Of a stretch of DNA of 64,000 nt, positions 46,368 to 49,712 are shown piece after piece. Where the stretch lies: the NCBI RefSeq assembly GCF_023638035.1, contig NZ_JAKRVX010000001.1, positions 62,001-126,000 on the forward strand, read 5' to 3'. This DNA is from Natronocalculus amylovorans. GTDB taxonomy: Archaea > Halobacteriota > Halobacteria > Halobacteriales > Haloferacaceae. Each line of letters begins with the position of its first letter. Position 1 is the first letter of the stretch. Position numbers and translations under genes: made by a program. The notes under the pieces were generated by a model, which was not told where the DNA came from, ran no database searches, and saw nothing but the letters and a program-made list of their open reading frames with translations.

Positions 46368-47096
46368 CTAGTCTACGGTGTCAATACTGAGTTCCCACTC
46401 ACCACCGCTTTCGACCAATATGTACCCGACACCACCGATATCCGCAGTGAGCGTTTCATCCTCAATATCATCCTCGATTTCAAATACGCGCGCACTAAGC
46501 TCACCCTCACGATTGAACAGATCAACAGTGTGGCCGGCACCACCGGTTGCAGTGAATGTGAAGGTAATGTCGGAATCATCAGAGAATTCGACCGGGCCAA
46601 CAACATCTACAAGAATACTCTCAACAGTGACTGGCAACGACTCACCGGTGTTGTACACTGGGAGTTCTGTAACCGAAACCTCCCAGTCACCGTCAGCGTC
46701 AACAGACAGACCAAGCGTTTGTTCATCAAATGAGTGGATTGTCCGGCCCTCAAACGGACCGACTGCACTGTAGCCAAGCGAAATACGGTCTTGATTCTCG
46801 TCGACAAACCAAACCGAAAACGCGTCATCCCCATCGTGATCATATTCGACAATTGTTGGCCCGGTAGTGTTGTGAGAGAACGTATCTGTGTACGCTGGTT
46901 CTCCGTCGCTGTCGTCACCACCAGCCGTTCCGGTGCCCGAAAACGTGTGTGTGACGGCGTCGCCACCGTCGCTTTCGTATGAGTTACTTGAGTCCGCGTA
47001 TGGCGTTCGTTCACCGTTTCCATCACCATCGCCCGTACAGCCCGCAACCGCTGTGAGTGCCCCACCCGAGAGGAGAAGATATGAGCGCCTATTCAT
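46368..47096 (-). CDS. Tat-exported lipoprotein of unknown function
   Basis: A 242-residue protein with MNRRSYLLLSGGALTAVAGC, a twin-arginine signal plus lipobox. An Asp/Gly-rich linker follows, then two beta-rich repeats of about 85 residues, each with a 'GxGGAGHTVDLFNREGE'-like pattern typical of extracellular beta-sandwich (PKD/C2-like) domains. Start at 47096 chosen; five more residues upstream are possible. Faces outside the cell. No enzymatic motif seen. Confidence 0.75.
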   Translation of the reverse strand: MNRRSYLLLSGGALTAVAGCTGDGDGNGERTPYADSSNSYESDGGDAVTHTFSGTGTAGGDDSDGEPAYTDTFSHNTTGPTIVEYDHDGDDAFSVWFVDENQDRISLGYSAVGPFEGRTIHSFDEQTLGLSVDADGDWEVSVTELPVYNTGESLPVTVESILVDVVGPVEFSDDSDITFTFTATGGAGHTVDLFNREGELSARVFEIEDDIEDETLTADIGGVGYILVESGGEWELSIDTVD

Positions 47097-47164
47097 ACCA
47101 ATGATGTACACGCAAAAAAGGTAAATCTGCCGTCGTTTGATAAATCAGTTCACTGTAATGACAA

Positions 47165-48235
47165 CTATAGGTTATCTGCGAGTCTTTCTGCGATTCGGTG
47201 GGCACCCTCTGCTGCTGCAAGGTCAGGGCGCTCTGCGGAGACAACCGAAATATCGCGTGAAAGCTCTTCTGAGAGACGTTCTTCGAACACATCTGTAATG
47301 CCTGGGATACATGCCATTCCACCAGTGAGCGCGATCGGTTTTCCGAGCGCAAGCTGATATGGCTTCATGTGTGTGTTTGCAAGCTCTGAGAGGAAGTTAT
47401 TTGCAATCTCATCAACAGCCTCATCCACATACTCATCGACAGGGTCCATGAGTCCACGGTTGACAGTAAACTCATGTGAGCCACCGCCCGGCTGCTGGAT
47501 AATGTCGGTAAATGGTTCGAAATCAACGAAGGAGGCGTGTTCTTCTTTGTACTCTCGTGCGGTTGTACGGTCGATGTTGACTCGCCCCTGTGTCTCCTCT
47601 TCGACAGCATTTGCAATGCGTCGATCGACCTCGGTACCAGTTACCGCACCGGTTGAGAACGGCGCAAGCTGCTCACCGTGGCGGTATGCACATGCTTCGA
47701 GATTTGTTGATCCCATATTGATCGATACGAAGACCTCATCAATTGCTTCAAGCTCATCGCCCATTGCTGGAATCGACCCACAGAGGGACTCCGGGAAGCT
47801 TCTGATCGTTGCTTCACCAATTGGACTCCCTTCAATTACGTCGCTGAGGTTTTTCAATCCAGCTTCGTTGTCGATCGTTGGTATTGCATACACGACCACA
47901 CTATCTTCCGGAATATTTTGAGCGGTGATCAGTTCATTGAAGAACTTTTTTGCAAGCTCTGCGCGGGCATCGTCCTCTGGAAGTCCCGATCGGAGCATAA
48001 ATTCGACACTATCGGGATATTCTTGTGCAGCTTGCTCGCCGTACAGTACCCGCTCACTGCCGGTAATTGGATCTTCATACGTTGCGAGACACGTTAGTGT
48101 TCGTATTGTTTCGATCTCGCCGTTTCGCTCGATCTGGATAACTGTTCGAGTACTTCCAAGCTTCACACCGACTGGTGTTGGATCGTCACTACTGGTTGAG
48201 CTCCCGTCGAATGCATCGGATTCTGTTTCTGTCAT
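47165..48235 (-). CDS. Actin/MreB-like filament ATPase, probable salactin family
   Basis: A 356-residue protein of the actin-Hsp70-ParM fold. The first phosphate loop reads VGVKLGSTRTVI, with Lys where most actins have Asp. The second is VSINMGSTNLEACAY, and the adenosine motif is IALTGGMACIPGITDVFEERL. The N-terminal 20 residues are a Ser/Asp-rich disordered tag. Haloarchaea have an actin homologue, salactin, forming dynamically unstable filaments from the poles; this gene fits that group better than MreB or crenactin by its motifs, an assignment from memory. Preceded by an ArlD/E-like gene 31 bases upstream, probably the same operon. Confidence 0.78.
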   Translation of the reverse strand: MTETESDAFDGSSTSSDDPTPVGVKLGSTRTVIQIERNGEIETIRTLTCLATYEDPITGSERVLYGEQAAQEYPDSVEFMLRSGLPEDDARAELAKKFFNELITAQNIPEDSVVVYAIPTIDNEAGLKNLSDVIEGSPIGEATIRSFPESLCGSIPAMGDELEAIDEVFVSINMGSTNLEACAYRHGEQLAPFSTGAVTGTEVDRRIANAVEEETQGRVNIDRTTAREYKEEHASFVDFEPFTDIIQQPGGGSHEFTVNRGLMDPVDEYVDEAVDEIANNFLSELANTHMKPYQLALGKPIALTGGMACIPGITDVFEERLSEELSRDISVVSAERPDLAAAEGAHRIAERLADNL

Positions 48236-48266
48236 AAGTATTCGTTGTTAGATTGTAGTATACGGC

Positions 48267-48728
48267 TCACGAAAGCGATGCCAACGTAGCAATATACAGG
48301 AGACTAAGACGGTGGTCGCCAATTTCAAACGATCGGGCGTGGACCGGCTCTGGTAATGAACCAACCTCGCCCGAGATTGTATGTTGAATTGCTGGTGTGA
48401 TCCACCCGAGTTGCTTGTAATATCGAAGTGCAGTACGCGCTTCAGCGTGCCCTCCGACGAGTGTGAGAAATTCGACCCAATCATAAAGAAGCCGACGTCC
48501 AAGGTCAGTGTCGGGTATCGTCCGGAGGTATGGTCGTTCCAGACCGTCTGCAGCCTTCTTTGTACGGAGGGCCAGCAGCTCTTTGAACTGCTGTGCCCGG
48601 ACAGATTCCTCTGCAGTAAGGCTCTTTTTTACCGTTGCTGTCGAGCGAACCTCTGGCTCTGCGATTCCTGCCAGCGATCGCAGTTCAGTTGGATCATACT
48701 CTCGTGGGTTTACTCCCATACTACTCAT
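48267..48728 (-). CDS. ArlD/ArlE (FlaD/FlaE) domain protein
   Basis: A 153-residue protein. The C-terminal 90 residues match the conserved domain of archaellum accessory proteins D/E: ERPYLRTIPDT, a W-x2-FL core helix, ALRYYKQLGWI and the ending HRLSLLYIATL. The N-terminal 60 residues are helical and charged. ATGs at 48728 and 48719 are both usable; I took the first. There is no archaellum operon around it, so it is a stand-alone paralog. Transcribed with the actin-like gene 31 bases downstream and after alaX. Confidence 0.72.
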   Translation of the reverse strand: MSSMGVNPREYDPTELRSLAGIAEPEVRSTATVKKSLTAEESVRAQQFKELLALRTKKAADGLERPYLRTIPDTDLGRRLLYDWVEFLTLVGGHAEARTALRYYKQLGWITPAIQHTISGEVGSLPEPVHARSFEIGDHRLSLLYIATLASLS

Positions 48729-48832
48729 CACACCATGTCTCACAGTTGCTGGACCGCTTTCGTCCCGCTACCGTGATATAACTCATGCACAGACTATCAG
48801 TATTGTGGTGATTTCCATCCGCTACAAACAAT

Positions 48833-49567
48833 CTACGGTGACAGTTCGAAATGAATCCGCTCATGTTCACTGCCCTGTGTTTGTCGCTTTGTTACGGTAA
48901 TAGTCCCAATCTCTGCTGTATTTTCGACATGTGTGCCAGCGCATGCAGTCCGATCGAACGGTATCTCGGACTTGGAGCCCCCTGAAATCTCGACAATTCG
49001 AAGTTCGGTGATAGACGCCGGGAGAAGATTAATTCGGGTTCGGTCTGGATCCAACGCTTGTTCTGCAGCCTCTCGATCCATTTCATACCAGGTCACGTCA
49101 CGTTCGTCCACAACAAGCGCGTTTAATCCAGCCTCAATATCCGCAAGATCCGTCTCAGTGAATCGGTCGTGCGCACAATCCAGATGTGCATGGTCATCAT
49201 AGAGTTGATTGCCTGTTGTTTCTGCGTCATATGTCTCTAACAAATAGGCAGAGAGGAGATGCTGGGCAGTGTGATAGCGCATGTGCGCAAAACGGCGGTC
49301 CCAATTGAGCTCACCTGAAACGTTCGTTCCAGGTTCGGGGAGCGGGTCAGGGCCTGCTAACGTATGATATATCTCATCGTTCTTTTCCACTGCAGTCACG
49401 TCCCATGTAGCTTCGGCACTTGTTATGACACCAGTATCGTGTGGTTGTCCCCCACCGGTTGGGTAGAACTGCGTTCGATCGAGGACCACACGATCGTCGA
49501 GCGTTCGCTCAACGGTTCCGGTAAATGTTCCAACAGAGCTGTCAATAAAATAGAGCGGTTCAGTCAT
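48833..49567 (-). CDS. alaX: Alanyl-tRNA editing protein AlaX
   Basis: A 244-residue trans-editing hydrolase that removes Ser or Gly wrongly attached to tRNA-Ala. Zinc-binding HTAQH near residue 100 and CAGTH near 205 are both present, as in the AlaRS editing domain. The N-terminal FYPTGGGQPHDTG marks the medium form (AlaX-M). ATG at 49567 (MTEPLYF) preferred. Divergent from the HD-domain gene at 49725. Confidence 0.93.
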   Translation of the reverse strand: MTEPLYFIDSSVGTFTGTVERTLDDRVVLDRTQFYPTGGGQPHDTGVITSAEATWDVTAVEKNDEIYHTLAGPDPLPEPGTNVSGELNWDRRFAHMRYHTAQHLLSAYLLETYDAETTGNQLYDDHAHLDCAHDRFTETDLADIEAGLNALVVDERDVTWYEMDREAAEQALDPDRTRINLLPASITELRIVEISGGSKSEIPFDRTACAGTHVENTAEIGTITVTKRQTQGSEHERIHFELSP

Positions 49568-49712
49568 GGATATCATGTGTTTAGTAACGCAGGATGGTCT
49601 CTCTTGTGGTTATATCTGTGAACGGCTGATCACCGATTGTTTGGGGTGTCGTAACGCATAAGGCATGAAGAACCGTTAATTCATGTAATGAGATACATAA
49701 AAAGCCCCACTG

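Follow-up and report, generated by a model that had tools for sequence, protein, structure and literature searches.

The gene for the actin-like filament protein salactin and the gene immediately upstream of it in Natronocalculus amylovorans, most likely arlD of the archaellum, form a pair that recurs across haloarchaea. We propose, with a probability of about one half, that the two genes encode a conserved two-protein haloarchaeal module in which ArlD would act as the polar adaptor or the cargo of salactin, in a manner resembling MamK. The conserved pair points to a previously unreported tie between the archaeal cytoskeleton and the swimming organ, and it unites two questions, namely what anchors salactin at the pole and which function it serves, and how archaella are placed and inherited. 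Within the open-access literature searched, a single paper mentions both salactin and the archaellum or archaella, and no link between the two was found there.

The gene pair in N. amylovorans

Within the window analysed here (64,000 nucleotides of N. amylovorans DNA), a reading of the sequence alone had described an actin-fold gene 31 nt behind an ArlD/E-domain gene on the same strand and had placed both in one operon. The spacing was exact (Table 1), and the genes do form a transcription-unit-like pair, which is conserved well beyond this genome. The product of the downstream gene matched the Pfam model PF25229 (Salactin) across residues 19–352 (cut-off of 27.1 bits) and the NCBIfam equivalog model NF053533, “actin-like salactin” (cut-off of 400 bits). 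Membership of the volactin family PF25216 (24.7 bits against a cut-off of 35) and of the MamK family (41.3 bits against a cut-off of 400) was rejected, and MreB models gave no match above their cut-offs. As both curated salactin models matched far above threshold and the volactin and MreB models failed, the assignment of this protein as a bona fide salactin is secure. It belongs to the same equivalog family and has the same phosphate loops as the Halobacterium salinarum salactin (VNG0153C), an ATP-dependent and dynamically unstable polymer with polar growth, known as such only from that species (PMC10746226). Volactin (HVO_2015) is likewise a haloarchaeal actin-like filament, but a cell-shape protein. 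The lysine that the sequence-only reading had singled out in the first phosphate loop, in place of the usual aspartate, is indeed present, although it is no peculiarity of this salactin: it was found in 32 of 33 aligned salactins from more than 20 genera, Halobacterium included, with asparagine in the remaining one.

The product of the upstream gene scored 57.1 bits against PF04659 (Arch_fla_DE, cut-off of 21), which it carries as a stand-alone domain without an ArlC part. A TATA-like TTATAT upstream of this gene is a candidate promoter for the pair as a whole, while the GTATAC in the spacer would make a separate but weak candidate for an internal promoter of salactin. A bacterial-type promoter scan was discarded as unsuited to archaea.

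Table 1 Features of the arlD–salactin pair (positions within the window)
Feature	Position	Strand	Remarks
Salactin gene (actin-like filament ATPase)	47165..48235	-	ORF, 356 aa; PF25229 608.6 bits, NF053533 593 bits
Phosphate loop 2, NMGSTN	47702..47719	-	Usual Asp absent; family-wide, salactin alignment
Phosphate loop 1, GVKLGST	48149..48169	-	Lys25 at the position of actin Asp; family-wide, salactin alignment
arlD–salactin spacer	48236..48266		31 nt; sequence
GTATAC, weak TATA-like	48258–48263		About 25 nt ahead of salactin ATG; sequence
arlD, type 1	48267..48743	-	158 aa when counted from GTG; ATG 48728 or 48719 is the likely start
Arch_fla_DE (ArlD/E) domain	48279..48539	-	Profile match
N-terminal motif NPREYDPTELR	48678..48710	-	Alignment of 51 sequences
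TTATAT, TATA-like, candidate promoter	48776..48781	-	Upstream of arlD; sequence only

Conservation of the pair among haloarchaea

A survey of 294 haloarchaeal genomes detected salactin above the cut-off in 141. By script count, the partner lay immediately upstream and on the same strand in 62 of the 81 salactin genomes that were scored, spanning 22 of 28 genera and three families, these being unevenly sampled genomes with mechanically called ORFs. The neighbourhood survey that had been suggested from the sequence alone thus does return a recurring ArlD partner, and a pairing private to N. amylovorans, which would have spoken against the idea, is not what was found. One Haloferax genome (G268) was scored as having the genes merely near each other, because masked bases break the frame of its salactin; the genes are truly linked at a distance of 102 nt, which brings the count to 63 of 81. 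In a second collection of 80 named loci, whose species overlap with those of the first, the pair was present in 70, at distances ranging from a 4-nt overlap to about 350 nt; the overlap, ATGA, is that of Halorubrum. When the genes within 5.5 kb of 31 representative loci were compared, the partner was found in 28 and the next most common neighbour in 8. As the pair recurs across haloarchaea in this way, the pairing goes beyond chance. Haloferax mucosum carries two salactins (L042/L181 and L043/L139), each adjoining an ArlD-like gene, which in one of the pairs lies downstream.

The linkage does not hold in Halobacterium (g24), in the genera g42, g48, g51 and g64 (with 5 kb between the genes in g64), in part of Natronomonas and in part of g54; we infer that g24 is Halobacterium because one of its loci has a MutL-like neighbour. 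In Halobacterium, arlD and salactin lie apart; salactin there is reported to neighbour genes of DNA replication and repair, and synteny was called poor (PMC10746226), whereas in N. amylovorans the two are encoded together. The genus that served to characterise salactin thus appears to be one of the exceptions, with the link split. Outside haloarchaea, no linkage of salactin to PF04659 was found (L248–L267; G301, G310, G319, G328 and family f15), and some homologues occur there without any PF04659 gene, which marks the association as haloarchaeal and salactin as older than it.

Identity of the partner as ArlD

PF04659 occurs only twice in the N. amylovorans genome, once in the ArlCE encoded by the archaellum operon and once in the salactin neighbour. 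The operon encodes archaellins, CheY, CheC, CheD, ArlCE, ArlF, ArlG, ArlH, ArlI and ArlJ in this order, as assigned by inspection and backed by PF01917 for the archaellins and ArlF/ArlG. This operon contains no arlD, which leaves the salactin neighbour as the sole stand-alone ArlD candidate. The operon lies 540 kb from the pair, and arlD is therefore not encoded in it; since the location of arlD differs among genera, this distance lowers the case for an arl-operon gene and not that for its being ArlD. In a tree of the domain, whose deep supports are weak, the partner fell together with two ArlD proteins, the one encoded in the Halobacterium arl operon and the cheYCD-linked one of Haloferax; ArlCE and a second, short ArlD type found in other families were both separate from it. 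The identity of the Haloferax ArlD is itself based on gene order and on the published unit name “ArlD/HVO_1202”. With these Haloferax and Halobacterium ArlD/FlaD proteins the N. amylovorans protein shares the domain and the N-terminal motif, but its gene differs in lying outside the arl operon and beside salactin. These comparisons make it most likely that the partner is the archaellum protein ArlD and not just some looser relative with an ArlD/E domain. Neither a Foldseek search of the PDB with the ArlD model nor a profile search of PDB sequences returned a match. In Haloferax volcanii, ArlD is required for archaella and localises to the pole; ArlD-GFP is polar, and small foci of it sometimes travel from pole to pole (PMC6509185).

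Type 1 ArlD proteins consist of an N-terminal [N/D]PxxYDxxELR motif, a variable and probably disordered linker, and the C-terminal Arch_fla_DE domain. Across 51 aligned sequences the Pro and Leu of the motif were invariant and the Tyr, Asp, Glu and Arg were kept in at least 90%, a degree of conservation equal to that of the domain. The motif was present in every salactin-linked partner among the named genomes. A strict tie between motif and salactin was rejected, as the motif survives in some salactin-free genomes: it is kept in the salactin-free Halobacterium genomes G003 and G012, and in an altered form in family f6. With the motif retained in such genomes, it may serve the motor too. The Leu of ELR is replaced by Arg in two salactin-free Halobellus genomes, which is suggestive only. 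In a genome that lacks an archaellum, an ArlD-like protein with a doubled N-terminal motif was observed (L080, 7980–9152).

Relation of the pair to archaellum and chemotaxis loci

CheC and CheD genes precede the pair in Haloferax, Halobellus, Halogeometricum and g16. The Haloferax order, cheY-cheC-cheD-arlD-salactin, agrees with “ArlD/HVO_1202”, named as one transcription unit of H. volcanii, which is raised together with all archaellum and chemotaxis genes by deletion of csmR (PMC13286277). From this gene order and a salactin-family match in the H. volcanii genome, we infer that HVO_1202 is the salactin homologue, which would make arlD-HVO_1202 a genetically tractable test case. In g54 (G117 and G269) the arl operon itself holds two salactins, in the order ArlCE, ArlF, ArlG, salactin, ArlE-like, ArlH, salactin, ArlE-like. 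A second ArlH gene, with a 99.6% identical protein, follows the last ArlE-like gene of the operon in G117 (L142, 1936–14524); L073 is the counterpart locus in G269.

An archaellum was present in 139 of 141 salactin-containing genomes and in 96 of 153 salactin-free ones, and absent from 2 and 57, respectively (Fisher P of 9e-17, calculated on species that are not independent). Among haloarchaeal genomes, salactin is thus almost confined to archaellated ones; as some archaellated genomes have no salactin, it is not a core part of the motor.

The pair can nevertheless persist without the archaellum. Archaellin, ArlF/G, ArlCE and ArlH are all missing from two genomes (G183 and G278), which still retain salactin with its partner, as does a third (G291) in which only a broken remnant is left, consisting of one archaellin-like match with stops and no real ArlH. 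Conversely, five salactin-free genomes of family f1 (G060, G065, G098, G108 and G233) possess an archaellum (ArlH 73–82% identical) and have PF04659 solely as an ArlCE copy, the type 1 partner being absent. The partner therefore tracks salactin as much as it tracks the motor. In G110 and G253, another arl operon type with its own short ArlD is present and the type 1 gene still stands beside salactin, on the opposite strand in G110. The short-ArlD operon occurs in these two genomes (L154 and L155) although related genera carry the other type, which looks like an operon replacement.

Proposed role of ArlD and alternative explanations

In the proposed module, ArlD, a cytoplasmic protein of the archaellum motor at the cell pole, would contact salactin, a dynamically unstable actin filament growing from the pole, probably via its conserved N-terminal [N/D]PxxYDxxELR peptide. 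Salactin filaments would thereby be anchored at the motor or at a precursor of it, and could move the motor or precursor or share it out between the poles, as MamK does for magnetosomes. MamK is an actin that distributes magnetosomes with the partner proteins MamJ and McaA/McaB. It was the nearest solved relative of salactin by sequence profile, while in fold comparison MreB and MamK were about equal; MamK belongs to another family, however, and the cargo proposed here is the archaellum motor and not the magnetosome. Given a conserved motif and a filament encoded side by side, an adaptor role for ArlD is a natural guess, and it could be reconciled with the travel of small ArlD foci between the poles (PMC6509185).

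Several observations weigh against this role. As a stand-in for the complex, arlD and salactin of Halohasta salina were modelled with AlphaFold as an in-frame tandem with the stop codon read as Gly. Judged without inter-domain error, the model was uninformative about contact and gave no sign of docking: the salactin fold was good and the confidence of the N-terminal motif was about 52 with salactin against 56–59 alone. FlaD-GFP by itself restores motility to an H. volcanii flaD deletion (PMC6509185). Deletion of salactin in H. salinarum leaves motility normal and disturbs DNA distribution at low phosphate (PMC10746226), which counts against a strong role in motility, but the pair is split in that genus. 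The retention of the motif in salactin-free genomes and the unlinked salactins outside haloarchaea weaken the proposal further.

The main rival is that salactin is simply one gene of the haloarchaeal motility regulon and stands next to arlD so that both are regulated jointly, with no contact between the proteins. This would fit the rise of the ArlD/HVO_1202 unit with the archaellum and chemotaxis genes in the csmR deletion (PMC13286277), the near-restriction of salactin to archaellated genomes and the absent docking signal; we consider it possible but rather less probable than an adaptor or cargo, as it leaves unexplained why arlD, and not any motility gene, remains by salactin through relocation, and why the pair persists after loss of the archaellum. 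Persistence of the latter kind, once with a doubled motif, would instead be expected if the partner had been recruited from ArlD mainly as a polar anchor for salactin in chromosome segregation at low ploidy, with its archaellum role secondary or lost. The low-phosphate DNA distribution defect of the salactin deletion (PMC10746226) and the occurrence of salactin outside haloarchaea without PF04659 also favour this explanation. It appears unlikely, since it predicts neither the near-restriction of salactin to archaellated haloarchaea nor salactins within an arl operon, and H. volcanii archaella need ArlD (PMC6509185). A gene order set once in the haloarchaeal ancestor and persisting by chance is very improbable: descent of the pair is probably mostly vertical, so that genome counts overstate independence, but the remaining neighbours were reshuffled between the same genera in the flank comparison, and tandem and doubled arrangements recur.

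Two further ORFs flank the pair in N. amylovorans. Downstream of salactin lies a lipoprotein-like ORF with no Pfam match (46368–47111), and the gene directly preceding arlD in the same orientation encodes an AlaX-like editing-domain protein (48833–49576), a neighbour shared by only a few related genera.
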